Below, piece after piece: positions 4,516 through 59,400 of a DNA stretch of 64,000 nt. The stretch spans positions 3,773,501 through 3,837,500 of the forward strand of contig NC_070560.1 in the NCBI RefSeq assembly GCF_026914185.1. Reading direction: 5' to 3'. The notes under the pieces were generated by a model that saw nothing but the letters and a program-made list of their open reading frames with translations, made no database searches and was not told the origin of the DNA. This stretch comes from Puccinia triticina (lineage: Eukaryota; Basidiomycota; Pucciniomycetes; Pucciniales; Pucciniaceae). Position numbers and translations under genes: made by a program. Positions within the stretch are counted from its first letter, which is position 1. Each line of letters starts with the position of its first letter.

Positions 4516-7500
4516 ATGTCCATCTTCAAGGCAATCAACAACGTCCTGGGTGTGGGTCCGAAAGCCTCAAGTACCCCTCGAGTCTCATCCCCTTCGACCG
4601 ATCGATCGCCCGACTCTGCCCAATCTCAACTATCCACCTTCCAAAACTCATGGCATATCATCAAGGTCAGGAAATACAGCGCCATTTTATCATTTGGATC
4701 CAGAAAACAAGAAGATGAAGATGAAGAAAATCAGCTGATATCTTCCGCAATTCCCGCTCGGGCCTTGCTTTCTACAGAACTCGCTGTCTTCGCCCAGGCA
4801 GCGCCACCAGCTCCTCGAATCAACCTCTATCAAGGAAAGACTTGAGCTCATGTGGGAGTGTTTGGCGGTCGAGAACAACATCCCGATCACGAACTTGAAC
4901 CCATCACTCTCTCCTGTTGCTTCTCAAACTCCTGAATGTGTTGAATATTGTAAGTACATTTCCTGCTGTATCACTCAGACAAGCCGATACTGAACCTTGG
5001 TTCTCTCTATATTGTAAAGTTCTTGAAAATGACGTACCGGGGAACCTCGTCGCACTGTCTTTGCCCGATCAGCCGATCGGCGTCAAGGGCTTGGTCATCA
5101 AATTCTTCTTATCACTCGTCGTCTTCATGGACGAGAAATTCGTTGTTCACGCCAAAGTCCACAAGCCACTGGTCAGACTCTTGCGCAGCTGTGTCGAGCC
5201 AGAGCTGGGATCAGATGCAGGGGATGATGCCGGTTGGGGCACTGGAGGGTCGAATTATGAAGAGGCTGTCGTAGAGCTGATGTGCCGTGAGAATTATACT
5301 TATCCTCTTGTTTCGTTGAATCTCACTTGAATAGGATGTCTTCTTTTTATTGATTTTTCAGCTTCCGTTTTGGCCTTCCCCCATTTTTCTGAAAAACAGA
5401 TTTATGTGCTCGAATTAAAACATATCCAGAACTTTTGCTTGTCTTTATCCACAATCGCTCTCGCTCCTCGCAGGTGCAACCCGCCGAAGCAGTTCCTGAA
5501 CCGTCGACTGTTCAGCCTATGCCAATAACGACGTCCAGCTCCCAGTCTCCTGTTTCCTCCGGTCTTGCCATCCAACCAATCGCACGCAAATCAGTCCATT
5601 TCTCTCCTGTGCCCCGTCCGCCTTCGTCAATAACGTCAGAGCTCTCAGCCACCGGCAACACGGCCAACAGTCCTACTAGCCCTACTCACACCACCCTCAG
5701 CTCCTCATTCTCATCTTCAAGCCAGCATCTGTACAACGAAGCTAACAGGAAATCGGGCTCCAAGCTGGCTGCAATCGGCAATGCGCTCAAAGGAGACTCA
5801 GACATGCTGATATTCTCCTATCTCTTGCGCTTCCTTCATCGGGAGGGTCGGACCGGGGACCTTGCACGAGCTGGTTTACTGTTCCTGATGGAGTTAGCGA
5901 TGGGCCGATGTTCCCACCTGCCAGGAGACGCCTTCCTCAACTCCCAGCCATCTCAAACAACTGACGATGACCAACCCACTCCCGCTGATACAATCTCCAT
6001 GGCATTTGGTGAATGGGTACTCGACTCCGATTTTGCAGATGTCTTGGGCGCTAGCTTAGGAGCTGCGTATGGCTTGCTCCCAAGCAAACTGGTTATCACT
6101 CCTCGTGACCCAAGTAGTGAGGACTCGACTGGAAGAATGGTCCTGGGGGGTATGGGCATACATTTTTCGGAAGGCTCGGCGGAGAACGCCCAGGCAATTC
6201 AAGAGAAGGAGAGGGAAGAACGACGCCAGAGACTTCTGATAGGCCTGGGGGTCTCGGGATCGGCTGAGTTTAGGACACAGATTGATCTTTTCTTGAAGAT
6301 GATCGAGTTTGCTCAGGACGTGATGAGGAATGTGAGTCCTAGTACGTTGGACCATTACGTATCACCAACCGAGCTACTCTTGGCCTCACAACCACCTAGG
6401 TCGGCTTCCCTTGGTTCCGCTCTTCCACCACGACTCAACCCCACTAGCCATTTACCGGAACCAGTGCGAGATGAATCTGGGCCGAGTCCGTCCGAAATCG
6501 TGGCTTCAGCTGTCTCCTCAACCGTCCTGCTCTCAATTCGGAAATCCTTCCTCTCCGGCATCATCTATCCCTCTCTTCTCGAATGCTCCGAAAATGATGG
6601 CAGCGCGGTGGCTGTGATGAGTTACCTTGAAGCAACCTTGTCACTGTTGGAAACTGACGGCGAACTGAGTGATAGCGTGCTCAGATTTTTAATGGCAGAG
6701 GCTGATGAAGATTTTGAATTAGATGCTGGCCACTGTGTTCGTCATTTTTCTTTTATTTTTGAAGACTTATTTTCAGTTTCTGATCTCTGCTCTCATTTCA
6801 GTCTGTAACCTCCAACCAGACCGAAGTCATGCAACTGGGACCTTCATCCCCGTTCATCAATCCGAACCGACGAAACTCCGGGGCGATCTCGATCATTAAG
6901 GCTGACTTCAACAAAGCCAAGCCCGGACGCCGGGTCCGCAATGAAGAGGATACGTTGATGTCTGACACGGGGATTACCTACTTCAATTCCCTGGGTCGAT
7001 TCACGTTGAAAGACTTGCTAGTAAACAATATCCAATCCACCGACAGCCCAACAGCTACGGCAGCTCTGAAGTTATTACATGTGATCCTAGTCAGGCATGA
7101 TCGATATGCCCTCACCTTATTAGACATTATTCCTGATCCGACTGCGACGGCATTCCCCTTTCCTCACAGCATGGATGTCAACCAGAAAGAGAACGGGGTT
7201 GATTCAGATTCACAGGAGTCCGACCAAGAAGAATTTGTCTATCCTACAGGTGGTGATAAAGTTGATTCAAATGATGAACTGGACGATGGTGATGAAGAGT
7301 TTGAATACCCCGGTAAGAGCGAACATGTCAAGTCGGCTTCCAATGAGGACGAAGAGTTCAAGTATCCAACGCCTACGAAACCCCTCTCAACAAATGCTCT
7401 ATCTTCGTTTACCCCAGGTACCCAGACGCATGCCCAAAGCACGAGTACAGGCCGGTCTCATTGCTTAAAGCCCTCATTTGACTTAGTTAAAAGCATCCAC

Positions 7501-9036
7501 TGTTCGCCATGTCCAACCTACCGAGCTCACCGAGATGAAATCGAGTTTCTATCAAACTTGGTCGAGCTGATTGACCCCTCTAGTATGGTAATGAAAGCCG
7601 ACTCCGTCCCTGGATCTCTCAGTACCGCCTTTCAGCATTATCTGCTAGACGCCGAGGCTGAATTGACCGGAACAGCTACATTCCGTCGTGGATTGTTGTT
7701 CGACTATGTTTCAGCCTCAGTGATTCCAAGCTCCCAACCTGCCGCAGACAAGCGCCGAAGTATGCGCCCGAGTAACTTCACTCCTAATCAACCAACGTCG
7801 AGGTACGAATCAACACTGGACTTCATCGATCATCCAGTAATCCGGCACCGGCTTTCTGCCGAAAACCCTCTCATATCTAGCATCTTAGAATCACTAGCGA
7901 AGTTTTTTGTCCAACCACCGGCTCTGAACTTGATTCTCACGGGATGTGTTGCTACGCTGGCCTCCTGCCCAACAAGATCTTTAGAAGGATGGATGCTGCC
8001 CACTCCTAACCCAGATGATGATGAATCTTTTGACCAATCAATTCTAAGCTCATGCACTCCCCGCAATCCGATAGTTGATTATGACGAAGGAGACGACCGA
8101 TCGATCGACTTTGCTGTGGACGAATACGTCAGCAGTCATCGAAAGTCGAGCTCAAGGAGGACCTTTGAATCCTCTTTTAGCCGGCCCCAGGGCGCAGGTG
8201 GGGCGGATTGTCTGTTGGAAGTCTACCGACAACTTGCTGAGCAAGTGGCGGGCTATCGGAACACGATTACCAACTTTAACAAGTACTTGAAAGAACGTCG
8301 TCAAGGTTTAATCTTTGTTGAGAACCTGGAAGACGCACTGGATACGTTGACAGGAACGATGCCCAAATCCGAAGCTGTTGTCGACAAAGAGCATCGGATG
8401 GTCAGTCCGGCCAGACCATCAGTCCAAAACTCTACTAAGGCGCCCGTCTCGCCGAATGAACCGCCCGCGAAGCCGAAAGATTCTTCGTTTTTTTCCTCCT
8501 TCTTCAAGAGCAGTAACCCTTCTAAGTCGCCCTCGCCGACGGCGTCCAGTCCACGAACACAGGCCGGCAAGCCAATGGATTCCGCTGGGGGACGAGCGCA
8601 TCGGCCGGTGGCCGTGAAGCCGTTCTCGGACCATTATCAGCAAACCGGCTCGATCAAGCTGACCATCGTCCCCGTGAGCACGCCTGGCTCGACCAAGAAG
8701 CTGCAGCGGTCGCTGCTCAAGATCGACTTTTCGGACGAGGAAGAGAGCGACAGTGACTCTGAGAATCCCGGGCCGGACACCCCAACAAAAAAGACCCTCC
8801 ATGGCTCCCATCTGCCCTCCATCAAACTCTCGCAACCCTCCAGAAAACTCAGAACTGAAGACGTTCAGGATCATCCTGCTCAGCGCGATCCCCCTCCTCC
8901 TGAGGATGAGAAAACTGTAATCAGCTTGTCCATGCTCCTGGATAATGTTGTCATCTTGGAGGAGTCCATTAAAGAATTGGGTGCAATCATCAGCGCTAGA
9001 AAGTCTCTGGGTATCGATCCCGTCCGGATTCTTTGA
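4516..9036 (+). CDS. FHIP: FHIP/RAI16-like protein (FTS-Hook interacting)
   Basis: Homolog of the FTS- and Hook-interacting protein. In animals and Aspergillus this joins FTS and Hook to link early endosomes to dynein. Exons 4516-4665, 4778-4949, 5020-5286, 5400-6736 and 6802-9036 join in phase and give about 1386 residues. Family landmarks: the N-terminal FxxSWHII segment; a helical block with CVEYFLENDVP, the DQPIGVKGLVIKFFLSLV stretch and KVHKPLVRLLRSC; RIKTYPELLLVFIHNRS, restored only by splicing exons 3 and 4; GRFTLKDLLVNNIQ near 7.0 kb; and the C-terminal block LSMLLDNVVILEESIKELGA. The central and C-terminal linkers are acidic or Ser/Pro-rich. One of these linkers repeats the pattern EFxYP four times (about 7230-7370). 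The exon 4 donor (TGT|GTTCGT) is weak and least certain. It is a cytoplasmic adaptor, and the gene looks intact. Confidence 0.85.
7225..7375 (+). repeat. Short acidic EFxYP repeat in FHIP
   Basis: Within the FHIP coding sequence the acidic motif (D/E)EEFxYP occurs four times in about 50 residues (EEFVYP, EEFEYP, EEFKYP and a related Asp/Glu-rich spacer unit). It is probably a disordered linear-motif segment. I do not know a binding partner. Confidence 0.5.
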
Positions 9037-10745: not shown

Positions 10746-13700
10746 ATGGCTCCAGTAAACCGATCCCCTAGCTCTATTGCTACTAGATCCACCAACGCTG
10801 CGGCGGCCACTTCCAGCAGCAACGCGGCCGGCAAACGAGTCGCACGTAGTCCACCGCCAACGTCAGACGACGAAATCGACACTGTCAGAGCACCACGGGA
10901 AGAACCGCCGCATCAACCTGCTCCCAGAGTCAATTTACCGGACAACGATGCCCCCCTGCCTCCCGATTTCTCATATGCATTGGACTCCAAGAATAAGGAC
11001 CAGATCATAAAGCACGCACATCATTTGTTCCCCGAGTCTAAGAAGCTTCTACCGTCCGGCTCGAACTTCCGAACCTGGCTGATGAAGATGGAGGAACTGG
11101 CTGATTTCCCCCTTGACTATCATAATTTTTACTTTGAGGATTTCTCTCGTCACCCGGTCGACCACATCGCCCGAGTGATCTTTTGCATTGCCCTATCTGA
11201 CGAAATTAAGGAGGACATCAACCATTGGGATTCCTGCTACGCAATTATGATCTCCATTCGGCGGTGTTTCACCACATTTAGCCGTGCAGCCCAAATCAAT
11301 CGATGGGCAGCTCTGAAGTCTATCAAATGTGACCAAGGGGTCCCTGCCACGACGATTTTGGCTACCTATTGACGTTGTTTGTTGGATCTCAAAGAATCGG
11401 GTGCTTCCTTGACCCAGGACTCGATTTTCGGGATGATGCTTCAAGATTCAATCGCTCAGGGTTCAGCCTTGCGGCAAGAATTTGACTATTGAGTCGACCA
11501 AGAGCTAGCAGCACGGCGGCAAATCCCGCTCCTATTTGTCGAAATGATTGACTTGTTAAACGATTGTCAAGAGAAGGTCCGCGGTCGGGAAGCAGCCCAT
11601 TGCGGTTCGGTGCCACCTTCTATTTTTCAAGCCAAACCTCAGCCCACGCCGGTCCGGGGGAATTCCATTGAAAGTCACCCAGACAACGTGTACACATTGG
11701 CCGCTTGCCCTACAAAGTTCAAGAACTCTCCCTCTCAAACCAGACATTGTTTCCGTTGTGGATCCAGCGCGCATTTAATCAGTAACTGCCCTGTCCCCCC
11801 GGAAACTGCCCAAAAGAGCTCGCCGGCCAATCACCCAACTCAGAACCGTCTGCAAACCCCTCAATACCAGGCTTACTACCCGATCCTTGCTCCACCGGTC
11901 CCGGGTTATGGCTTCCAGCAATTCTATCAACCAATCGTACACACAGGTAACAGTCCAGCAAATACCGGTCGACCTGCCGATAATTATCAACCGGTCTACC
12001 CGCAAAGTCACCAACCACGACCCGCGGCGCGCGAAGCATTGGCTGAGGTTCCACCGGATGGCCCGCAAATGTTTGTTATGCAGCCGACACCCCAAATGTT
12101 TATGCCCCAGGAGGCTCCTCCAATGTTCGGCATACATCCCGCACCACAGATGATGTATACAATGCCTCAGGGCACACCTTCGACAACCAACTTGCAACCA
12201 TCGGCTCAGATGTTTGAGATGGATTGAGATGTTGGTTTGACCAAACCTTCTTTCGGAGCTTTGTCCTTCTCCGCCGCATCTCCTGCTCCTTATGCAGATT
12301 TGCCGGCTATTTTCGATACCGGCGCTACTCATCACCTGACTGGTGACAGGTTAGCCCTGACCAACTTCACTCCGCTAAGTAAACCCATACCGCTTTGGGT
12401 AGCCACTAATGGCCCTCCCCGTTTCATTACAGCAAAGGGAACGCTGACTTTTCCGGGGTCAACTTCAACCCCTACACTGATCAATGATGTATTGTTCTGC
12501 CCTGAGGCGGCGCACACGCTCATCTCCCCGGCAGCATTGCGACTCGCTGGCTTTTCCCTTTCCTTCCAAGCTGATTCTTTCTTCATATCTCACGGACGAC
12601 ACTTCTGGACACGGTCGTCTCTCAATCCGGTTTCCAGGAAATGGGAGCTCCCCTCACCTATTCACTTGTTTACTTGTTCTTCTGGTCGTCCATTGATGTC
12701 TCATCCTGTTGTTACCCGGTCCTTTCCTGCTGCTCCTCTTGTTCCTCCTGTCTCAACATACAATGTTGGTGCTGTCCCACCCGTTTTGTCTCCATCATCC
12801 ACTCCTCAGCCCACTGTTTCTCCACGTTGTTATCCTACCGTTTCACATGTACCGCCAGTTGATGTATCAACAGTGATTGTAAATAAGGAATACATTCCTT
12901 TTGAGTACTCTGTCCCCGTCGCAACCAATCGACCGTTTGAAATGCCTCACCTCACCGCCGATGAGGCATTGCTGCTCCATGTCCACAGACGTTTTGGACA
13001 CGTTAGCCTTTGCACCATACGCCGTATAATGTCTCTAGGCGTGGCGTTAGGTCTACCCAAGACGCTACCTAGAGGGGAAATTCAATGCCCTTCTTGCGTG
13101 ATTTCCAAGAGTGTGAACCGGAATACCCTGACGTCGGATCGTCGGGATTTCCAGCCTGTGGACGCCTGGAATGTTGATCTAGTTGGACCTTTTGAACTTG
13201 CCGCTCTCAGGGGTGGACTTTATGTGTTAACTATTCGGGATATCGGCTCCGGATACGCTGAGGCTAAGGTATTAGTAAAAAAAAGTGAGGCGTGTACGGT
13301 CCTCCAAGACACTATTTTAAAACTAGAACGCCGTACTGGCCGTTGTCTGAAGATCCTATGTTCCGATAATGGGGGTGAATTTAACAGCAAGATACTTGGT
13401 GACTTCCTTACAAAAAAGGGTATTACCACTGAGCGTTCTGTTGCTTATCACCATTATCAGAACAGCACTATCGAACGTTTTGATTGCACACTTCAAGACA
13501 TGGGTCGTACCATCCTATTGGACAGCACCCTTCCGAAAGAATTCTGGGGCCTCACTTTTGTATGGGCCTGTTACACTCTTAATCACATTCCCAACGCGGC
13601 GAGTGGCGATGTAACCCCTTTTGAACGTTTATTTGGGATCAAGCCAAACGTGGACCGTCTTTGACCTTTTGGCTCGTTGGCTTTTGTACATGTACCCGCC

Positions 13701-15515
13701 AAGAAATGACGGAAACTAGATGAACGTGCTCTAAAAGGTTACGCGGTGTTTTATCTCCCCGACTCGAAAGGGTGGGGATTTTGGATTCCGGAGATTGGAT
13801 CCTACTGCCATTCAGCTGTGGCCACCTTTCCGGATTTCCCCAGTTCTATTTCTACCTCACCGTCTTTCTCTTTCGCCTAATCTCTTGTTCTACAACTCGG
13901 TAGTTTCGAAGACGAAGTTTTGGTTCAATCTCAGGATAACATGGTTGATATTATTTGTAATACTATTCCGGAAATCTTGGACGCCTTGGTCCCTACAACT
14001 TACAAACAAGCGACGAGGGATGCTGATAGTGCCAAATGGCTTGAAGCCATTAAAGAAGAACTGTCAAATCTACGGCGTCTTGGCGTATGGTCAGTAAAAC
14101 CAATACCGAAGGGAACGAAAATCCTCCAAGCTAAATGGGTATTCAACAGGAAACTATCTGCCTTAGGAGTGGTGGTCAGGTTCAAAGCTCGCTACGTGGC
14201 AAAGGGATTTGCTCAGATTGAAGGGGAACATTTCAACGGCACTTTTGCCCCTACGGCTACATTCGTGTCCATGCGGCTGGTGTTATCTATAGCGGCCATG
14301 AACGGCTGGCCTGTCCATACTTTCGATTTCGTCGCTGCATATCTGAACTCGCCTATCAATGAAGAGGTCTGGGTGGCCCCCCCTGAGGGTCTAGATGTAC
14401 CGGCGGGACATGCCTGTCTGCTCCATAAAGCGCTTTATGGCACTTGGCAGGCAGCCCGATGCTGGTGGCAACACCTATTGGCGACTCTTGGACGGCTCGG
14501 GTATGAGAGCTCCCAATTCGATAGCAGCGTGTATGTACTCCGCAGACGTGACGGCCCCTCCGTTATCTGGATACACGTCGACGACGGTATCGTTACCGGG
14601 TCATCTACCCAAATCCTGCATGAGCTGGAATCAGCTTTATTGGACAGTTTGGAGATCAAGTGGTCATCTTCTCTGTCTGACATTGTTGGTCTTCAAGTGT
14701 CTTGGGACCAACAAGGCTTCAGTCTTGGGCAGCCAAAACTAGTATCAAAACTGCTTTTGTTGCACTGGGATGGGGCCAGCCATGCTAAAACCCCTCTACC
14801 AATCGGAAATCTGCCGCTTTCATGTGATATGGACAAAGTTTTGGAATTGTCTAAATACTTCTCCATTCTTGGGTTTCTCAGTTAACTCTCCGCCGGATCT
14901 CGGCCTGATATCACGTTCGGCGTGAATTTCTTGTCCCGGTTTTCAAAAAATCCCAGCACTGAACATTGGAAATGTCTTCGCCACCTTATCAACTACGTGG
15001 CGGCAACTAGGGACCAACAATCAGTCCTGAAACCGAACCCCGCCAGTCCTCGCCTTGTATGTTTTGCGGACGCTAACTGGGGGGGCGAATTTTTGCGGTC
15101 TAACTACGGCATCCTCGTCTTATTTCATGGTAGTCCCATACACTGGGTAGCCCGCCGACTGGCCACCATTGCGTCATCCACAGCACACGCCGAATATATG
15201 GCGCTAGGCCATGGCACGAAGCAGCTGCTATGGATTCGTCATCTGATTACAGATATGACTGGTTCCGAAACAACCGGTCATTTGTTCTGCAATAATCAAG
15301 CAGCAGTGAAGATCTGCTCCGATGAAGCATCCAACAAACGGACCCGTCACACCGACCAAGAATTCTGCATTACAAACCAAGCCCTCTTTCGAAAACAAAT
15401 ATCATTATCCTGGGTTGATACCAAGAACCAATTCGCGGACATATTTACAAAGAACCTCCCAACCCTCACTCATCAGTATCAGGTACGGGTAGCGTCGAGT
15501 GGGGGGGTGTTGTAG
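10746..15515 (+). pseudogene. Copia gag-pol, interrupted
   Basis: The frame starts at 10746. Gag (10746-12227) ends with a CCHC zinc knuckle CFRCGSSAHLISNC. The protease motif DTGATHH lies near 12322. Integrase (about 12960-13660) has the HHCC motif (HRRFGH ... CPSCVISK), then NVDLVGPF and SDNGGEFNSK. Reverse transcriptase (about 13990-14800) has the catalytic HVDDG. RNase H (about 15050-15250) has FADANW and the STAHAEYMAL segment. In-frame stops lie at 11370, 11490, 12225, 13662 and 13707 (all TGA), near 13880 (TAA) and near 14884 (TAA). The reading frame is otherwise kept across the whole element, so the damage is by point changes. Confidence 0.9.
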
Positions 15516-35923: not shown

Positions 35924-37517
35924 TCAAGAGAAGGAGCGGATACCGTCGAGAGTAGTGATGGCTTGTTTGATAGCTTTCGTGTCATGCGCGCGGATGATGT
36001 GAGCGCCGTTACGGACGGCGATAGTAGAAGCGACGATGGTCGGGACCAAGCGTTGGTCGGGAGGGGGGAGGGAGGAGTTGGAGGGCCGTGCGAGGAGTTG
36101 GGCGAGGAAACGTTTGCGGGAGAGGCCGACGAGGAGCGGGAATCCGTGCAAGATGTTGTGGTGGTCTTCGGCGGAGGAGGGGCGTTGGAGGGCGTGGAGG
36201 GAGTGGAGCAGCTGGCAGTTGGCGGCAAGGTCCTTGGCGAAGCCGAAGCCGGGGTCGATGATCAGGTTCCAGCGCTTGATACCCGCATCGAGGGCTCGCT
36301 GGACCTTGGCGGCAAGCTCGGCACGGACGTCTTCGACGACGTGGTGGTAGCTGGTCAGCTGGCCCATCGTCCGGGGGTTTCCGCGCATGTGCATGAGCAC
36401 GTAGGGCACGTCCAAGCGGGCGACGGTGGGGAGCATGGCGGGGTCGGCGTCTCCGCCGGAGACGTCGTTGACGATGGTTGCGCCAGCCGCGACGGCGGCC
36501 TCGGCTGTCTGGGCACGGAAGGTGTCGATGCTGATGTGGCAGTCGAGACGGTGGTGGTGACGGAGGGCGCGGATGGCGGGCAGGGTGCGCTGGATCTCGG
36601 TCTCCAGGGAGACCTCGGGCGCCCCGGGCCGGGTGGACATGCCGCCGATGTCGAGGATATCCGCGCCCGCGGCCGCGTGCTCCAGCGCCCTGTCCACCGC
36701 ATCCTCGGCCGCCAGACACTCCCCCCCATCGGAGAAGGAGTCCGGCGTGCAGTTCACAATCGCCATCAGATGCGTCCGCTCGCTCAGGTCCAGCGTCCGG
36801 CAGCCCGCGCCGCCCACCAGATGCGTCTTCCGCACCATCCCCGCCGCGCCGCTCTTCAGCTCGAGGTCGGCCAGGAGCGATTCGATCGACGTCTGGGTCT
36901 CTGGATGGATCGTCCGCCGCGCCACACTGCCCAACACCCAAAACAAAACGCAGTTTTTTTTTTACCGCCTGAGTGGACCGGGTCATGGATCAGTGAGCAG
37001 GGGAGGGCGGTACTCAGCAAGCGGGGCCAGGACGAACTGGCGCTCGACGATGCCGATGTGGGGGATGGTGAGGTCCGGGTGGCGGACGATGTCGGAGTTG
37101 TAGAGCAGGATGTCGATGTCGATGGGCCGGGGGCCGTTGCGGGGCTGGCCGTGGAGGATCCTGCCCTGGGCGGCCTCGACCGTCTTGACGAGTTTCAAGA
37201 GTTGGAGGGGCTCGAGGGGGGTCGAGATCTGCGGACGCGAGAGAGGGGATGAGCGGGATGGCGGATGATTGGGCAGCAGAGGTGGAAGGACGGGCCTTGC
37301 AGGCGGCGTTGAGGAACGGGGGCTGGTCGAGGAGGTACATGGGCTTGGACTGGTAGAGGAAGCTGGCGTCGAGGACGCGGGTGGCGGGGTGGAGGGCGGC
37401 GAGGTGGCGGAGGGCATCGCGGATGTGGGTGCGCCGGTCGCCGGTGTTGGAGCCCAGGCCGAGATAGACGGTGTTGGTCGCGTAGCCTCGGGCGATGGTC
37501 CGGGCGAACCTGCTGGA
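35924..37517 (-). CDS. FOL1: Folate synthesis protein, HPPK-DHPS part (FOL1)
   Basis: HPPK makes 6-hydroxymethyl-dihydropterin pyrophosphate; DHPS joins it to p-aminobenzoate to give dihydropteroate. HPPK: from 37517, VYLGLGSNTGDR, SFLYQSKPMYLLDQPPFLNAAC, then after an intron ISTPLEPLQLLKLVKTVEAA and RPIDIDILLY. A GA|GTACCG donor (37013) and GGGCAG acceptor (36927) join LAPLA to DVARRTIHPETQTSIESLL. DHPS (36926-35924): MAIVNCTPDSFSDGG, DIGGMSTRPGA, SIDTF, NDVSGGD, MHMRGNP, IIDPGFGFAKD and LVGLSRKRF are all present. Fungal Fol1 normally begins with a DHNA aldolase domain, which is missing here; only a possible short C-terminal remnant is seen at about 37580-37690. The intron after FLNAACK has no GT donor in the right phase (AAG|GC). 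It is either a 5'-truncated copy or a rearranged gene. Coding sequence is very GC-rich. Confidence 0.8.
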
Positions 37518-37579
37518 CTGGCGCGGCCCGGCTGGGCGTGGTCAGCGTGGTGTGGTGGGGTGGATGGGGGATGGGACTG

Positions 37580-37690
37580 ACCATCTCGGCGCCGGCTGAG
37601 GATCGCCGTCGATCGCGACGGTCTCCGGAGTGGGCCTTGGAGGCAACGGGGGTCGGCCGGCGGGCCCCGTCGGAGGACCCCGGCGACCCC
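37580..37690 (-). pseudogene. Possible remnant of DHNA aldolase C-terminus
   Basis: GC-rich segment upstream of the HPPK exon. The frame RRPTPVASKAHSG loosely resembles the end of fungal DHNA aldolase, and a GTCAGT donor (about 37583) precedes the HPPK acceptor at 37518. Upstream of 37.69 kb the composition turns abruptly AT-rich and the homology ends. Confidence 0.3.
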
Positions 37691-37699
37691 CCGTGGAGG

Positions 37700-39713
37700 C
37701 TGAAAAATGTGGCAAAAACCCAAACTTGATCCTGCAAGTGCACTGTGAATGTTGGCACACAAAGAACTTGCCAAATTCCCAAATTTTTCAGTATGTAATG
37801 TGCCAGTTCCTCCCTCACTTGAGCAAATTCTTTCCTTTTTGACCAAATGAAAGATCTCCATGTTGCGGAGAGGCCCACATTTTAATAATAATCTAATTTC
37901 TTCAACCAGTAAACAGAGCCGTAAATCATCCAACTCCCTTCTTATAAGGGGGAGGGTTGAGTAAATCTATAGAGTGCCCTTGGATCCTTTTTTTGACCTT
38001 CAAGGTTAGGTTATAGACCTGCTTCTTGCCACCCAACCTATGAATTTGGGGTGGTTCTTGAAAATCCTGCCACCCACAGAAATCTCACCAAAGTCCACAA
38101 ACAGCTGGATTTACAAGCAGTGGCTAACTTGACAGCTGCACTTTCCAGCGTGTTGGTGGCTGGCTTTTTGTGTAGCTTTCTCTCTGAGGATGCTACAAGC
38201 CCCAAAACACCACGCTTGTTCACCAGCTGTGAACATAACTGGAGGAAAAAATAGTCAAAGTGGTATTCTTGCTGTGCCAATGTGGGGATGTAGGCTTGCT
38301 TTGCAAGTTCAGCCTACTCCCCAGGGGCCCAAGTTCTTGAGGGACTTTGCTAATTTCTTACAATACATGGAGCATATATGTTAATTTTTTTTTTGATTGA
38401 AGATGTATACCTACATGTCCAATTTTTTGTTTTTAGTCATTATCATACAGATAGTAGCTAAATACAAAAAATTGGACATGTAGGTAGGCCTCTTCAATGA
38501 TAAATGTTTACCATATACACTTCAGGTATTGTATTTTTTTCAGTATTTGTTTCTGGCAAGAGTCAGGTCCAATGTTTTGGTGGGAGCTGCCTTGTTTCCA
38601 TCACAACACCTCCAACACCTTGCAGAACATTTCTAGGCTTGAAAATGCAATACATCTACATATTCTTGATTTTTCAGTATTTTTTTTTTGCTACAAAATC
38701 TCGATTGCATCCAGTGAAAATAATTTACTGAAGTTCAAGATTTTGAACTTTGATTTGGCTTGGACCTGGTATATTGACAAGGACCATGCGCAGTCATACT
38801 GCTTCTTGTTGTCAAGTTTCAAATATGATACATCCCACAATGTGATGAAAATTGCTGAGATGGACAGGGAGTTTGACATTAATCAGAGTGATGGAAAAGA
38901 TGAATAAGCATGTGAGCAGAGAGGAGGTCCGGAATCCTGACAATCCAACTCCAACAGTGAAATAGGGGGTATCAAATATAGGAAATCTACAATTGGAAAG
39001 CACTCAATTAGCCAAAAAAATAAAATTCATCCCCAGTGGATCTTAAAACTGGGCAGATGAAGGAAAAACATGTTTTAACAATGGTGGGTTTTTTCAAACC
39101 TTTTAATTACATAATGGTGTCATATTTGATACCCCCTCTAAGGCTCCAGTGGGGAGGAAGTTATCCCTCTGGGAGGCACTTAGAGTATCTCCAATGGTCC
39201 TACTGATGTGTGACCTGCACTCAACTCCAGCAGGCCACAAGGTGTTTTTGATCAGTAGCAGGGCTGGGATGGGAGCTGCCACACAGTGGATCAATGATGC
39301 TCTTGGCCGCTACATACTTTTGGCATCTTTGGATGTGATTGATCAACCGCTGCTGACATTTACGGTGAGTGATCTGGAGTAGTGTGGCAGATCATTGATC
39401 TATGTAGGCCACACACTTCTATCTTTGTGTTATAAGCTCCCTCTACATTGAGAATTAGGATGATTGGCTATCTTCTGCCATCTTCTTGTGTCTGCCCAAT
39501 CAAATAATGTGATGAATGTGTGTGTGTGGCTTTTGAAATTCATTATTGAAGCAGATGAGACTTGTGATAATCCAAGGGAATCACCAATCAGCAAAGTAGT
39601 TGCTGATGTAAGATGGCTGCGCAGTCAGTCGAGCCCACCTTCCCGGCGGTCTTCTCTCGCCTCGCCGGCTGCCCAGCCAGACCGACACCCACCAACGACC
39701 ACCACGAACGACG
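37700..39713. other. Gene-free AT-rich stretch upstream of FOL1
   Basis: No DHNA aldolase domain and no other gene is recognised. It contains a foldback with 21-bp perfect arms at 38410-38484. The sequence resembles transposon-derived filler. Confidence 0.5.
38410..38484. repeat. Foldback with 21-bp arms
   Basis: The segment from 38410 (CCTACATGTCC...) to 38430 is the exact reverse complement of 38464-38484. Outer flanks (GATTGAAGA and TCTTCAATGA) continue the symmetry. It is probably a small MITE remnant. Confidence 0.85.
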
Positions 39714-42700
39714 ATGAACACTGTCTACCACCGTTCAGCACCCCGGCCGAGCATCCAGCCCAGGGAAGACGCCCAGCCGAACGAGCAGGGCTGGCTGCCC
39801 CCACGCCTCCGCCGCCCCGCACAGCCGCCAGTCATCCGGCCAGCAGCAGCCCACCACCAGCAACAACACGCCTACAGCCAGTACCACTACCACAGACAGC
39901 CCCAGGACCACAGATACCCAACCGCAGACTGCTACCGCCCACCAACCCACGCCCAGCCACCCTATCGGAGGCACTCTGCATACGGTATGAAGCAGACCCC
40001 TTCAACTAAAAAAAAGAAAAAAAAGAAAAAGAGAGAAAAACCCTAACCCATTTTTCTGACTGCCTCAACAGAAAACTGCCAGCTGCCCATCTTCCCCAGC
40101 CACTCCTTCAACTTCACCCCAGACTTAGGCTATGCCCGTCAGTCCCTCAAAAATTAAATACTACTGTACACACAGCCAAGCACTAACTTAATCTTAACCC
40201 AAACCGAAACTCTGAAACAGACGCCTCTTCTTCTGCCGTTTCAAGCCACCGGCCCATCGAACAACACTACCCCCTGCCCATGCCCATGCCCATGCCCATG
40301 TCCATGCCTATGCCCATGCCCATGCCCATGCCCGAGCGAGCCCCCATGGAGCCCATCTCAACCAGGTTCAAGCGCACCTTCCGCGCCTACAGCCAAGAAC
40401 CAGCCTCGCCCTCCACCTCCACCATCCCCGCCCCCGACTCCAACCCACAACACACCAGCCATCCTGCATCGACACCGAGCACTACCCAACAGCAGCAGCA
40501 GCAGCAGGCCCCAACAGATCGGGGGGACCATCAGCAGAGCCAGCCCCCGGCCAAGAAACCCAGACTCAACAACTCCTCCAGACAGCCTCCCCCAGCCCAG
40601 CAGCAGCAGCAGCAGCAGCGCCAGGACACCGACAACTCATCCCCTGAACCCCCATCCGACCCGCCCCTCATCCCGCCCGACTTCATCAAACACTACCAGC
40701 TCGGCTCAACCCCATTCCACCAAGTTTTTGCCTGCAGCGTCATCAACAAGGCCGCCAACAGGGCCGATCTCGTCGCCCTCACCTCGTCCATCCTCGCCCA
40801 CCTCGGTACCATGTCCGTCGCTCCCGATCCCTCTCCCTCTCATCCCCCACTCATTTTTGTTTTTTTGTTTTTTGGGTAGAACGGCGGTGGAGATCGTGTA
40901 CTTCAGCACGGGCAAGAAAGCCGCAGAGATCGTCATGGCCGTCAGCTTCCTCGACCCCGCCGTCGCCAAGACCGCCTGCGCCAGACGGCAGTTCATGGTC
41001 CCCTCCCAGTTCAGACACAAGGGCAACAAGCTGATTGTTTATCCCAAGCTGTCTGAGGCCGAGCACCCCGCCTCCGAGGATGGCTGCCCCAAGGCCTCGT
41101 CTGGTAAGTCTGCTTCTCTCAGTCACCCGCGCGGATCCACTGGACCCCGCCACGCAGCCTCTGACTCGTTTTCTGTTGTTTGTATTCAGATAAAGCATCC
41201 GCTAGCTCGGCCTCGGGAGGCCCCACTCAGGACCAGCCAAGCTCCCAGCCAAGCTCCCAGCCGCACCAAGACAGCGACCACAAGGTGGGTCTACTCTCTC
41301 TCACCGAGAGAGGGCCACTCAGCAGCTGACTTGATGGGCTTTTGCAGATCGACCCGAGTCCGTCCAAGCCCGACGAAGCCGCCGACACAAGCATCGAGTC
41401 CTGTGCACAAGCGTCTAGCAAAGCTTCCGGGAGCCGATCCGCTTCCGACCACGCCGCCCAGCCGGCAGATCAACACTCCATCCACCAGGCCTCCTTGCCG
41501 CCGCCTAGGAAAGCCAGGAAACTGAAGTCTTCCTCGCCCGTTGCTTCGCCCAAGAGAGAGTCCCGCCGCCGGCCGTCGTCGAGTTCATCACGCTCCCGCC
41601 ACGTCATCGCCGTCGCTACCATCCATTGCTCTACGACGCGCAGCGACACGGTGGACATGGCCCACGAGATCCTCGGTGCTGTAGGTCACATGTGAGTCCC
41701 CCACCCTCTTTCCTCTCGAAGCTTCCCCTGCTGATCACGGCCGTCTGGTTGCAGATCGGAGCTGGAGGTGCTCGCCTTCGAGCGGCGCAAATCCATCGAC
41801 GTCGTCCTCCGCGTCTCCTTCGATCGCGCAAGCGCCGCCAGAGAAGCCTGTGCGAGACGCAGGTTTAGGGTGCCCTCGGCCTATCACTACCATTGCTACG
41901 ACCTGCTCGTCTTCGAGGGCTCTTCCAGGAGACCGGAGATCACCCCCACCCCGCCCGACTCTCCGAGACCTTCCTCTGAGAGGGATGGCCGGTCGAGGGT
42001 TAGCCGGCGGGATGCTCGACCCCCCCACGACGAGGAGACCGTCCGCAGTCGGCCGGCCACCCCCGCCCAGGAAATCGACCAGCTCAGCTCGAGCCCCGAC
42101 CGCAAACCCATCGACATGCTGTCCTCCGATCCGATCGCCCCAGAACCGTCTGCTCCTCAGCCTTCAGCCTCCTCGGACCCGGGCCAGTCGGGCCTCGATC
42201 AACTTGACGACCCTCAGGAGCCGCCGCTCAAGAAGATCAAGACTCGGCGGCTCGACGCTGACAAGAGCCCCGCAGAGGCTCCCCCTCAACAGGCCCCCTC
42301 ACCCATCCAATCCCCGCCAGCTGCTAGCTCCTCGCTGCCTGGCTCCGTCGACCAGGTCTTTGCCACAGGCCTGATCCACCAATCCTGTACGCGTGAGAAG
42401 ATACCGCAAATGGTGCGCGACATCCTCGGCTTTCTCGGCCCCATGTGAGTCCTTATGTCTTTCCCTCCCTCCTCTACCGTGTAAGAGCAAGAGAGAGAGA
42501 GACTGATTGAGGGTGTGTTCAGCTCGGAGGTCGAGGTGCTGAGCTTTGTCGGCCGCAGGATCAGCCGTGAGGTCCTCCTCGCCATCACCTTCGTGCAAAT
42601 AAGCGCCGCCCGAGAAGCTTTCTTCCGCCGCACCTTCGACATCCCCTCGCCCTACAGCTTCCACAACACCCCTCTCACCGTCCACCGCACCAATCCGGCG

Positions 42701-45700
42701 GTGCGCGTCCAGAACCCGCCGGCGAGGCCCCAGCCCCCGCCGGAATCCCCGCGCCAGACGTCCCCCCAATCGTCCTCGATCGAGCTCGACCGGCCTCTGG
42801 TCGCTCCGAATCCTGCATCCGAGGACTCCCAACCGGCCGTCGACGAAGACCTGCCTCACGATGGCGTGAGTGTTTTGCATACCCTCCAAAACCAAACGGG
42901 CCCGCCTCAACTCATCAGTGCTCTCTACAGACGAGGCCCAAAAGCTCGGCCGAGGCCTCGGTCGAGCAGCCTCCTTGTGACTCGAGGAGCGACTCGGCTC
43001 AGATGCAAGAGTCGTCGGTTGAGATGCAAGAAGAATCTGGCTCTGAAGACGTCCGTGTACTTTTAGATTTCTCATGATAATCAGAGATAGGAGGAACTGA
43101 ATCTCTTTTGGATGCAGGAACCTCTCTGGCAGCGTGTGGTGAAGGACGGGCCGCCGGCCGATAGCGCCGCGCCCCCGACGCAGCGCTCTGCGAGCCCTCT
43201 GACCGTCAATTCCGATCATCCTAACATACACATCGAGCCGCCTGACGAGCCGCCTGTCGCTCAAAAGGATTATCACAGCACGGGTATCGAGATCATCAAG
43301 CGGCCCGTCCCTCGGAAAAGAGTGCGCCATAAGACTGTCTGGATCAAAGGATCCTTCCCTCGGAAGATCAACAATCAGAAGGTCGAGAGGTTTATCCGAG
43401 AACTCTTTGAGCCTCTTGGCAAGATGTGAGAGTCTCTCTATACAAGATCTTGGTCGGGTACAGAAGCTCACGTTTGTTTTGTGCTGATTGATGGCCAGTT
43501 TTTCTCTCAATGTTCACGCTCGTCAAGGAGGTCTGATCGACCTCAAAGTGACCGTCGATGAGCCTGTGGCCGAACAAGCCGAGAAAGAGTTGCATGGTCG
43601 TGTGTTTCCCCAGTGTAATTCATGGCCGCTCTTCCTCAACTCTCGCTATGTTCAAGGGGTCCGAGTCTTGAAGTCGCTCCGGGCCAAGCTCAAGCAGGAA
43701 GCTACCGACAAGAAAAATCAGGAACAGGCCGCTCGAAAGGAACGTCTTCTGCAATGCAAGAGCCGCGAGTCGCCCGACGCGCCCTGCCCATCCGATGCTT
43801 CCGGATCTCCCCCGCCGCCAGAGCCCGACTCGTCTTCTCAAGTCGACCCACAGGTTCAAGCGTCATCATCTCGTCAGAGTAGCCCATCCAGAACCCAATC
43901 TCGCTCATCATCGTCCTCGTCGTCTCACAACAACCAGGACGATCAGCCGATCCCCCCTCAAGAAGAAGAAGAAGAAGAAGAAGAAGTTGGCCTGCCCCTC
44001 CGCACCATCCAATTCCCGATCCCCGACAATTGCAAGTCCGATCATCCCTCCTGCTCGGTCAATCGTCTCCACTACAAGCTGGAGAAGATCCGGCTGACAA
44101 CGAGCAAGAACCAGACTGTGATCGACTCTTCGTGGGAGGGAGAATGCTTGACGCTCCATGTAGTCCCCAATTCGGACGAGCATTCTCAGCTCCCTGAAGA
44201 AACCGAGCCAGACAACATCACAACAGCCGCGTCTGAATCGCGCCCCGTCGCCTCTACCTCGAGCTCCGCAACGCGTCATCGCAGTCGGTCGAGTGAAGCA
44301 CCGCCGAAGCGATCGCCGAAAACTCACCGGTCGTGGCCCTTTGCGCCCGCGCCCATGTACCTCGATGAATCCACTTCATCGGACTTCCCCCGGACACTCA
44401 ACGACTTCTTGACGACCTTCTTCCGGCTCTGGGAGGAGTCGCGCGAGGACCTTCGGTACCTTTACGACGACTCGGCCGTCTTCTCCAACATCCTTGCCAA
44501 GCAGGGTCGCAAGGCCTCGGCGATCACCAAGAGCACCGGCTGGACGAGCATCCTCAGCAGCATCAGCCGGCTCCCTGCGCTCTCTAATGATCCGATGTCC
44601 GACCTCATCATCGATGCCAGTCCGATCTCGCTCCTCCCTCTCCGCGTCATCTGCAGCATCCACGGCTCGTTCTCCGAATTCCCCAACAAGGTCCGCAGAG
44701 CTTTCGACCGCTCGCTCATCCTCCGCCCCGTCGACGTCCATCTGCACCCCTCTGAAGGCTGTCTCGGACTCTTGAAGTGGATCATCCTCAGCGATACCCT
44801 GACGATCCGCAAACAAACCTCCCGGGCTACCGCCGTCACCGAGGGCTTCCGCGATATCCAAAAGAGCCGCGCCTGTCGCGAGATGGGCTCCGATTACCAC
44901 CAGGCTCGCGAGGTCTTCCAGCAGAGCCTGCGTTCCTCGCGTCGCCAATCGTCCCCAGCCGGGGAGCCGTCGAGGGCCCGACGGAGCTCGTCGATCCACT
45001 CGATCCGCGACTCGCCCCGTCCCCCTATCGTCCCATCCTCCTCCGTGCTCGACTGCCCCCCGGGAACCAGTCTGCGCTCGGGCTCCGAAGCGGTGGCCGG
45101 CCCGGACCTGGCGCTGCTCCAGTCGCAAGTGAAGGTCTTGCAGGCGGAGATCGAGAGTCTGAAGACGCAGACACGCATGCCCGCGATGATTCCCGGCGGG
45201 GACGACTCGCTGGTGTCGGGCAAGAAAGCGCAGCGGGCGAAGGGCGACGAGTGGGCCAGCGGGACGGGGCGGCCTCGGAAGACGCACGTCTCGCTGGTCG
45301 CCAGCCGGACCACCAGCCATCTCGGCTTCGGCGTCGCCAAGAAGCGCCTCCTCTTGCCCACCGACGACGGCCGCTACCTCGTCCTCTCCATCCGCGGCGA
45401 CATCCTCGCCTGGGACCCCGCCCCCGCCCCCGGCCTCCACCCTCTCCAGCTCGTCCTCCCCGGCGCTTCCCCCACCGACATCGTCGACTCCGCCGTCTTC
45501 GATCTGCCCTCCAACGCCCTCGTCGTCGGCGCGAGGACGTCCAAGGCCGCGAGGAATACCCCCACGTCCAACGTCTCCCTCGTCAAGATCTTCAAAACTA
45601 AAGTTTGTCCCTTTTTTTCTTGTTCATTTTTTGACGGGGGGTGGGGTGTTCATGGTTGTGAGTGTTTTGTATAGAAAGGGACGACGATGTATGACCGGCT

Positions 45701-46826
45701 CTTGCTGGACGACCCGATCCACGAGCACGGCGTGCTGGCCACCTGTCTAGCCCCGCCACCGGGGCCGGCCACGCTGGCCGTCGACGAGCCGCCCAGCCGG
45801 ACGCACACCCGCTTCCTCACCGCCGGGCACGACAAGTTCTTGGGCCTCTGGAAGATCTCGCATTCCGTGCACAAGAAGAAGGCCCTCCTCGCCGCCAAAG
45901 ACCTCGTCAAGATCCCCGCCTTCCATGCCGGCGTCATCCAGTCCTTGTGTCTCTTCGACAAACGTAATTGGGTGCTCTCCGGCGGCCATGATGGAAAGGT
46001 CTCCCCCCCCCCCCCCCCTTCTCTTCCTCGTTTCGCGGAGAGCAGTCGCTCATCTGTTTTCTTTGGTGCAGGTCTTCGCTACCGATCTGGGCCAGGCGTT
46101 CCACCATACCCTGTGTCTCGAAGAAAACTCGCGGATCTTCGATATCCAGACCAAGTATGCTCTCGTCCTCTCTCACCACTGAAGAAATGACAGGCTGATG
46201 CTTTCGGCGCTCTTCGCAGTCCGGTCGGGAGTGACACGGTCATGGTCACTACGGGGAACAAGGCTCCCGGGAGTCAAGTAAGCCCAACCCGCCCTCCCGA
46301 GCCCGCCTGCGGTCCGCTAACCCTGTGTTTATATTTTGGTAGTTCCGGTATTGTGATCTGAGGACGCCAGCGCGACCGGTGCTCAGCTTCGGCTTCGGAA
46401 GCAGCTCGGCCATGGTCGGCGGGGGGATTGCAGGCGGAGCAGGGGGCGAGAAAGGCACGCGCAACCACCGCAGAGGCGGCCTGCACGACTACCTCTTCTG
46501 CTACCCCAACCCCGAGCCCGCCGCCGAGGTCCTGCTCTGGGACCTCCGCTTCCCCGCCTCCGCTTTCTCCCCCCATCCCTCCTCCTCGTCTTCCTTTCCT
46601 GCCGCCTTCGACGGCCCCCTCCCCCAGCCCTTCGGCTTCGGAGCCGGCCAGGGCGCACTCGCTTCCCAGGTCTGTACCCCCCCCCTCTCTCTGCCCAACT
46701 GAGACCGCCACTGACGCTTCTCTTGGCCTCGCTTCGGTGCAGACTTATCTCGAAAACCTCCACTCCCTCGCCGTCTTGCACAAGGAAGTGCTCGCCAAAA
46801 TCGACTTCGATCTCATCGTCCGATAG
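39714..46826 (+). CDS. Four-RRM, NTF2-like, WD40 protein
   Basis: Sixteen exons join in phase (39714-39984, 40072-40137, 40221-40812, 40880-41103, 41190-41284, 41348-41691, 41755-42444, 42523-42865, 42931-43050, 43118-43425, 43499-45602, 45675-45998, 46072-46154, 46220-46277, 46343-46669, 46743-46826): about 2010 residues. The N-terminus is Pro/Gln-rich with Met-Pro and poly-Gln runs. Four RRM-like units follow (residues about 275-350, 497-575, 727-805, 985-1060), with Ser/Pro-rich linkers. A domain like the NTF2-like part of Mex67/NXF1 follows (about 1310-1440): FLTTFFRLWEESREDLRYLY, VICSIHGSFSEF, RRAFDRSLILRP, SDTLTIR. Then come a short coiled coil (LLQSQVKVLQAEIESLKTQ) and a WD40-like C-terminus (ILAWDPA, GHDKFLGLWK, LSGGHDGK, VLLWDLRFP). 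A role in mRNA handling is inferred. The start could also be the ATG at 39612. Confidence 0.75.
40273..40337 (+). repeat. CCCATG microsatellite coding Met-Pro
   Basis: Hexanucleotide run (CCCATG) with a few changes; it encodes alternating Met and Pro inside exon 3 of the RRM-NTF2-WD40 gene. CAG runs for poly-Gln lie at about 40491-40508 and 40601-40619. Confidence 0.9.
43962..43987 (+). repeat. GAA microsatellite coding poly-Glu
   Basis: A run of GAA triplets codes for eight to nine Glu between RRM 4 and the NTF2-like domain. Confidence 0.9.
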
Positions 46827-56476: not shown

Positions 56477-59400
56477 ATGAAGTGGCAGACGTTGCTCCAA
56501 CCCAACCATCCCAGCTGTCAGCCAGTCATCTCAGACGACTCAAAGTAAGTCTACCCTTACAAAAAAGGAAACGGACATTGGCTAACACCAGCGTATTTTA
56601 TTTGTTTTTAGACTGTGTTTCCTCGCTGGACTACCGCTCTCCATCCACGTCTATTCCACTCAATCAAACCTGCTAATCTCAAGCCTCAGCATACCCGATC
56701 CTTCCCAAAAATCTAAACTGATCAAGATTCTCCGACACCCTATCTCACCCCAACGACTTCTCATCCTAGTATCATCTTCGGGCCAGATTTACCTCTACGA
56801 TTTCATCGAGAACGCCATTAAAGCCACCTATCAAACTAGCCTTTCAATCACCCATGCCGTCATCCGAAACTCGCTCCGGCCTTCCTGTCCATCGTCCACC
56901 GATCAATCAACTACCACATCATTAACCCTGCTGCTGGTCACTAGAAAGGCACCCCAAGAGCCCAAAAATCCCAAGTCTAAACGTCCGCCTCCAGGCACGA
57001 GAAGCAAGAATCGTGAACAGGCAGTCCTCTATGCTGTCAAGCTCCCCGATCCATCATCTCCCGATCCAACGAACCAACAGATCCAGAAGATTCATCTCCT
57101 CAAAATCAATCCTATCTCTGCTTTCTCTTCAAGCCCTTGTGGAAATTGGCTGGGTCTTGTTACTGGCCTGAACATATGGATCATCAGGTTAAAGCCGATC
57201 GATTTGTTTGACAAAGTCAAAGATCAAGAACTATCCAAGAAAGTGAAATTCGAAACGCTTCATTTGTCAGCCCCCGAGCCGATCACTTGCATTGCCTTCC
57301 CAACCAAAACCCATGCCGACCACTTCGATTCCTCGCAACCTCCATCGATCGACGTGTCCTGTGTGCCGTGCGATTTCTTTGCAACGGGTTCGAGTTCAGG
57401 AAAGATCGCACTGTGGCATGCCTTATCCGAAGCCCAATGGAAGACTCTTGCCGAATTAGCTACTCAGAAGCCAGGTGTCGCTCTTCCCTGTCCTACATCG
57501 CTCTCCCACTGGCATTCTCACGCTGTGGCTGATCTCACGTTTACTCGCAATGGATCCCACCTACTGAGTGGAGGAGAAGAGGCCGTGCTCGTCCTATGGA
57601 GACTGGAAGACTTCAGCGGGATCGGATTGGATTCAAAGACCTTCTTGCCCCGATTAGGCACACCCATCTCGAGTATCTCTCTAATCGAGAAAGTGGACGT
57701 CAACGAGCCCGGGGCATTGGTCACTGGTCTAGATGGAACCCTGATGATCGTCAACATTGCAACCATGAGTCTCTCGAAAACTTTGAAACTACCCAAGATG
57801 TATCAATTGCCCAGCGTTTACAAACAAGCCACCCAACAAGCTATTATATCACCTATTTGCTCGCCAGAATCCTCTCAAGGTCACAACAAGCCATATGGTA
57901 ACGTGCTCGTCCAGTCCTCTTATCCATGTGGGCTACAGGTCTTGGATGGTTGCTCGGGAAGGGTGTTGAGTGAGATCTTTGTGAGACCGAAGAATACCGT
58001 CAGTCGACGAAGCGACCGGCCCATCGTTGAGCCCAAGCTACTGTTTGCCGAGTTGGGTGGGATCAAGGATCAGTACTTGGCTACCATCGATAGCTGGGTC
58101 GATGAAGAGCGTGGATTTTCGCTTGAAATCACTCTGAAGCTTTGGCAAAGAGTTCAAGAGCGGAATTCGGATGGGTAAGTCACAATCGCGCTTCAGCTAT
58201 CCAACAGTTACAGGACTTAGCAAGACTGAGATGGTTAATCCGGCCTTTCTTTATGCGGGCAAATATATTTAGATTCCATGTGATAGCACGAGTAGACAAT
58301 CCACACGATGACTCTCAAATCACTTCGCTAAAACTATCGACGGACCGGGTCCCGAAAATAATCACGACTTCGCTCGATGGGACGATCAAGATATGGACCT
58401 CTTCCTCAATCAGTCCGCATCTGATAACCGTTCCAACCGCGGTCACGCCTATGACGACTTCGCTACCCAAAAGTACAAAAATTCACTCATCATTTGGAAA
58501 AGAATTCGAAAACCTGAAATCGATCAAACTGAAGCTCAAAAATTATGGCGTTTCCAAGACGGTGATCGCCAAGGATAACTCGATCTTTGTCGTATTACAT
58601 AATAGCTCCGGGCGGAACATCATATCGATTTGGGACTTGAAACACTTCACGTTTTTGAAGAGCTTTAATCTGAACTCTTTCGGTTCTCTTAGTCATCGTC
58701 TACCGCAGAAGTTCTTCATCAAAGATCTGGAATTCATGGGCGATAAACATCAGTTCATCTTTTTGCTCGGTAACTTTGGTTGTGGGTTATTGGATTTATT
58801 AACCGGCTCTGGTACGTCCTGCTCGAAAATTCTCTCTTCGTGAGGTGACGTCCTTTGCTGACTTGATCATCTTGTTACATGCACTGCGATCGCTCTAATC
58901 GACAGAAATCGGATTTTGGTCTTGTGCGCCTCAGTTTATGGTTAAGACGCCCGACAATAACAAAGTGGTGCTCATACATCGAAAGCCCTCTGGCGATGAC
59001 GATGCGAAAGGGGAAAAATCCGGCAAGAAAGATGTAGACGCAGAGGCAGAGAAAGAGGTAGACGAAGGGACAGAAAAGGGGGGAAAGAAAGAGGAAACGA
59101 AATCGAAGCACAAAGAAAGATCAAATGTTAACAGGTTGGCGATCATTGATGTCGTCTCGAAGAAGACGATTCTGAACAATAAAATCAATCACGCGCCTTA
59201 TTCGGGTCGATTCATCGCCACCAAAGCCGCAGCAGAGCAGAAGGAATCGTTGAGGAAAGATGAAATCTTGGACGGCTTGGTTTTGATCACTGCTAGCTCA
59301 GGCCTGATCCGGGGAGGAGAGGCGGTTGATGATCACGCTTCTTCGAGTATGGATCAGGCGCTACGGATCGAGCAAGAGCTTGGGATCTCGACCCAATTGC

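Follow-up and report, generated by a model that had tools for sequence, protein, structure and literature searches.

A gene of the rust fungus Puccinia triticina predicted to join RRM units, an NXF-type NTF2-like domain and a WD40 propeller

Results

Gene structure at the locus

The DNA analysed here (the window, 64,000 nucleotides) is contig C3:3773501-3837500 of Puccinia triticina, and its plus strand carries a gene whose product, as predicted from the joined exons, almost certainly unites four RRM units, an NXF-type NTF2-like domain (NTF2L) and a WD40 beta-propeller in a single protein. An initial sequence-only reading had placed an RRM/NTF2L/propeller gene at window positions 39714-46826, and this observation is confirmed with the same coordinates: one frame opens with ATG at 39714, crosses 14 GT-AG introns and closes with the stop codon TAG at 46824-46826. 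Five of the 14 donors, those of the introns at 40813, 43051, 45603, 45999 and 46670, have a pyrimidine as the third base of the intron and read GTCCGT (twice), GTTTGT, GTCTCC and GTCTGT, while the remaining nine start with GTA or GTG. The 15 exons would be carried on a single transcript. The features, all on the plus strand, are as follows.

39714..46826, +: whole coding region, 15 exons, 1988 codons, joined reading
39714-39984, 40221-40812, 40880-41103, 41190-41284, 41348-41691, +: exons 1-5
41755-42444, 42523-42865, 42931-43050, 43118-43425, 43499-45602, +: exons 6-10
45675-45998, 46072-46154, 46220-46277, 46343-46669, 46743-46826, +: exons 11-15
39756..39845, +: N-terminal motif, residues 15-44, pattern [KP]RED-x-QPNE...W-x-P-x-RLRRP-x-QPP, absent from the deposited model
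40553..40564, +: basic KKPR resembling a nuclear localisation signal (NLS), residues 202-205, pattern conserved in relatives
40712..41057, +: RRM unit 1, residues 255-347, split by phase-2 intron 40813-40879
41600..41920, +: RRM unit 2, residues 479-564, split by phase-2 intron 41692-41754
42347..42691, +: RRM unit 3, residues 707-795, split by phase-2 intron 42445-42522
43328..43685, +: RRM unit 4, divergent type, residues 964-1058, split by phase-2 intron 43426-43498
43992..44174, +: conserved block of unknown kind, residues 1161-1221, modelled as E-H-E-E (E, strand; H, helix) in the Austropuccinia protein
44325..44852, +: NTF2L, residues 1272-1447, from Pfam, profile and solved-structure sequence matches
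45102..45173, +: short conserved helix, residues 1531-1554, with a low-confidence helix here in the model too
45288..46823, +: WD40 beta-propeller, residues 1593-1988, from sequence matches and model
46352..46363, +: first D-x-R motif, CDLR, residues 1856-1859, from the motif pattern
46538..46549, +: second D-x-R motif, WDLR, residues 1918-1921, from the motif pattern

Outside these modules, 968 of the 1988 residues form Ser/Pro-rich linker. The N-terminal linker holds a run of Met-Pro dipeptides at 40280-40333 (eight MP and one MS) near poly-Gln runs.

Relatives and range

Protein searches, each scoring the 7972-7994 candidates that shared most exact words within a length band, returned three, four and three proteins, eight different ones in all, of which five come from named rusts (one being the window gene itself, P0001) and three from metagenomes. 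P0002 is from Austropuccinia psidii, P0003 from a metagenome, P0004 from Melampsora larici-populina, P0005 from Cronartium quercuum and P0006 from Puccinia striiformis; the genera other than Puccinia we take to be rust fungi. No named relative from outside the rusts was found among the candidates scored, and because only word-sharing candidates in the length band were scored the rust-only range is to be read as seen rather than proven. Of the rust or basidiomycete range offered by the sequence-only reading, the relatives so far point to the former, and the module order that it claimed, RRM-like units followed by an NXF-type NTF2 domain and WD40, is borne out by sequence and kept in P0002-P0005. 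Four rust genera share this core, with one to four RRMs. By eye P0006 seems mis-spliced, with part of the NTF2L and several propeller strands gone, and it has no precomputed Pfam domain. The plasmid collection gave no match and has no bearing on the gene, and no description of this protein was found among the papers listed from an open-licence library.

The deposited protein PtB15_3B423 (P0001, P. triticina, 1649 residues) is identical to the joined exons (100%) over 79% of the searched part of the query; it models this gene in shortened form, from residue 133 on and with RRM unit 4 cut by half, the latter part being absent. We rejected it as the correct model, since it is without both this half unit and the N-terminal motif of P0002-P0005; the occurrence of that motif in P0002, P0003, P0004 and P0005 supports the longer reading of 1988 residues. 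The motif pattern is found in the joined reading and in these four of the eight database proteins, P0001 and P0006-P0008 beginning downstream of it, and it marks one place in the whole genome (122.8 Mb searched, 18 contigs). Between this motif and the first RRM, P0002-P0005 also carry KK[APL][RK], so patterned like the putative NLS KKPR.

Conservation was measured on the six pairs formed by the joined reading, P0002, P0003 and P0005. Pairwise identity is 60-73% for the N-terminal motif, 62-73% for the NTF2L, 39-61% for the propeller, 24-51% for the block before the NTF2L, 33-52% for the short helix and 22-44% for the first RRM, which makes the NTF2L the best-kept folded module and the RRMs the least-kept.

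The RRM units

All four RRM units are interrupted by a phase-2 intron at a common position, and the beta-alpha-beta-beta-alpha-beta fold of an RRM is found: unit 3 is modelled by AlphaFold with a predicted local distance difference test (pLDDT) score of 93.2 and draws RRM matches from Foldseek and VIA (matches from these two that lack the NXF RRM or NTF2L carry no information). The Austropuccinia counterpart of unit 4 is modelled as E-H-E-E-H over its first 60 ordered residues, with pLDDT blocks of 74-82, and its last strand has low confidence (pLDDT 36-41). In pairwise sequence comparison of unit 4 with units 1-3, the scores were reached by 444, 430 and 5 of 1000 shuffles, and the unit is therefore kept as an RRM copy on profile and intron evidence and not on plain sequence. 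Counted by hand, there is one RRM in Melampsora, one in Cronartium, two in Austropuccinia and four in the P. triticina gene, so that the four units of the sequence-only reading stand for the window gene but not as a general state.

The type-A units have an aromatic residue at one beta-1 column in two of six, and three of three divergent units retain a Trp in beta-1. Their matches to the Pfam families ComJ (0.036) and Glyco_trans_4_4 (0.038), in one member each, look like chance and were set aside. The six type-A units matched four families at an expectation value (E) up to 10, and the Pfam Tap RNA-binding family is not among these.

A conserved block of about 61 residues upstream of the NTF2L is kept in five aligned sequences and mostly missing from P0006. 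Among solved structures nothing matches it below E 0.27, and it has no Pfam family of note (best 0.18, in one of five members); as a fifth RRM it is unsupported by profile (hhalign 0.4%), the model giving E-H-E-E only.

The NXF-type domain and its relatives in the genome

The NTF2L matches Pfam NXF_NTF2 (PF22602) with 53.9 bits (E 3e-14) against a cut-off of 27, in agreement with the likeness to Mex67/NXF1 seen in the sequence-only reading. A profile of six copies picks out eight different sequences of solved structure (E up to 1), the best being 1q40_B at 2.5e-6; five are Mex67, two are named 'mRNA export protein' and one is NXF2, and single stretches match weakly. Compared with a frame of the genome's own Mex67, the profile aligns over 46 columns with an hhalign probability of 96.5% and E 8.5e-10 as a single comparison.

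In an exon-by-exon search the NXF_NTF2 family marks two places only in the genome, Mex67 on contig 4 and the window gene. The former, at C4:4358245-4359367, is an ordinary Mex67 with NTF2L and TAP_C, adjoined by LRR-like frames read by eye; one NTF2L match there contains TGA, presumably at an intron edge. TAP_C has three genome matches, the single one above cut-off being this Mex67. PF02136 marks two further places, by eye NTF2 itself (C17) and a G3BP-like gene (near C2:4766870).

The AlphaFold model covers a piece of 1041 Austropuccinia residues with a mean pLDDT of 44.1 and is usable only in the conserved block, over most of the RRM and in the central part of the propeller. Structure prediction, which had been suggested as a check for each domain, bears out the RRM and this part of the propeller and gives no usable NTF2L model. 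The short helix between NTF2L and propeller is perhaps a coiled coil.

The propeller

The C-terminal region shows the repeated four-stranded blades of a WD40 propeller. Among the best 60 of 92 solved-structure matches the RACK1 group scores best, followed by DCAF5 (E 2e-7), and the matched stretch is only about 100 residues long. To our knowledge proteins of the RACK1 and DCAF5 type have no NTF2L or RRM. A motif [CF]D-x-R followed 52-62 residues on by WDLR is present in five of the eight database proteins (P0001-P0005); P0006 retains the first D-x-R motif only, and P0007 and P0008 stop before the motifs.

Other features of the window

A neighbour on the minus strand (36983-37966) has an HPPK match (folate synthesis, E 4.3e-16). 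The G+C fraction is 0.64 at 36000-38000, 0.61 in the RRM-NTF2L-propeller gene and 0.47 in the window outside that gene. On the plus strand, adjacent frames at 5393-9036 match RAI16-like (PF10257, E 5e-31) and DUF5917 (PF19314, E 4.5e-11), and 12228-14885 holds retrotransposon pieces, presumably of Copia type, with reverse transcriptase (E 4.2e-48) and Pol_BBD above cut-off and integrase and pre-integrase matches under cut-off. A WDR75-type propeller match (E 1.2e-17) at 56586-58178, also plus, is perhaps a ribosome-assembly factor.

Discussion

Both G3BP, in which an N-terminal NTF2 and a C-terminal RRM share one chain, and the window protein combine NTF2 and RRM folds, but in the window protein the order is reversed and the NTF2 is of NXF type, so that it does not belong to the G3BP/Bre5 type. 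We know of no NTF2L or WD40 in the RRM array of split-end proteins (SHARP/Spen). The closest likeness is to NXF1/Mex67, with an RRM fold ahead of an NXF-type NTF2L; this order is that of NXF/Mex67 itself, a likeness that the sequence-only reading overlooked, and is given as RRM, LRR, NTF2L, UBA in an excerpt of PMC8583845 (see also the excerpt of PMC5095910). Unlike NXF1/Mex67, the window protein has several RRMs, a short helix and a propeller, LRR and UBA/TAP_C were not found in it, and an ordinary Mex67 gene is present separately in the same genome. As read from the predicted protein, what is new relative to NXF is that the RRM is multiplied, that a propeller is added and that LRR and UBA are missing.

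We propose, with a probability of roughly 0.42, that the gene encodes a nuclear scaffold of messenger ribonucleoprotein particles (mRNPs), that this scaffold evolved from a reused NXF-type RRM-NTF2L protein, and that it works beside Mex67, not as its replacement. By analogy with NXF1, the NTF2L would pair with a partner of the NXT1/Mtr2 type or meet FG repeats; the RRM array may hold partner proteins more than RNA, and an additional complex would dock on the propeller. A nuclear place is suggested by the basic sites. In favour of the proposal stand the NXF-type matches and the high conservation of the NTF2L, the RRM folds, the propeller, the module order kept in P0002-P0005 and the separate ordinary Mex67 gene. 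According to an excerpt of PMC5095910, the RRM of NXF1 is a pseudo-RRM and the principal mRNA-binding part precedes it.

Several results weigh against this proposal. No clear NXT1 was seen among the PF02136 places of the genome, and the Mtr2 profile has no match in the genome, nor in any control genome. When the joined protein was scanned in two pieces, no LRR family appeared at E up to 1 and UBA/TAP_C was not found, as the sequence-only reading had also claimed. The AlphaFold blocks over the NTF2L of the Austropuccinia piece reach pLDDT 24-38 only, with no usable model, and its fold therefore rests on sequence. At RNP1 positions 3 and 5 an aromatic residue is present in none of the six type-A units (the RNP1 register being our reading from model strands on the alignment), which leaves RNA binding by the RRMs unsupported, and the joining of RNA binding to a propeller proposed earlier does not follow. 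Among the folded modules conservation is lowest in the RRMs, which likewise speaks against a strict RNA reader.

The rusts may have kept a second NXF-class mRNP factor, with LRR and UBA dropped, RRM multiplied and propeller added, serving its own RNAs or a dock at the pore beside Mex67, though we regard this as doubtful. Because LRR and UBA were looked for and not found, the window gene is not filed as a member of the NXF family.

An unlikely reading would make the protein a DCAF of the Cullin4-DDB1 ligase, whose propeller docks DDB1 via the two D-x-R motifs while RRM and NTF2L select nuclear RNA-processing substrates. The paired motifs of P0001-P0005 and the rank of DCAF5 directly after the RACK1 group speak for it, but motifs of the D-x-R type also occur widely in WD40 proteins other than DCAFs, and RACK1 scores above DCAF5. 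An excerpt of PMC3271066 calls paired WDxR motifs a DCAF signature and reports their test in fission yeast Raf1; in P0001-P0005, however, C or F stands for W at the first motif in five of five, and the loose D-x-R pattern matches once more within the C-terminal half of P0001, P0003 and P0004.

With lower probability still, the protein may be a scaffold at the nuclear pore or membranes, its propeller then being of the open Sec13/Seh1 kind, with no role in RNA or export. It is improbable that it competes with Mex67, its extra NTF2L binding the shared small partner and so lowering or redirecting ordinary export while its RRMs and propeller serve for localisation; a second NXF-type NTF2L in a genome where the family marks two places, on a protein in which LRR and UBA were not found, would fit such a role, but the conserved N-terminal motif and propeller suggest more than titration. 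That two adjacent genes were read as one is very improbable: the gene model and all related proteins are predictions, but a single open exon of 2104 bases covers half of unit 4, the NTF2L and the start of the propeller, and the same module order recurs in four separately predicted proteins, P0002-P0005.

Conclusions

The general mRNA export receptor is where NXF-type NTF2L domains are known. A conserved protein, at present seen only in rusts, that combines this domain with RRMs and a propeller would illustrate how the RNA-handling machinery of this order of obligate plant parasites was enlarged. The shared intron position in the RRM array records the growth of the repeat from one unit to four, and the window offers one defined gene on which this extension of rust RNA handling can be studied.
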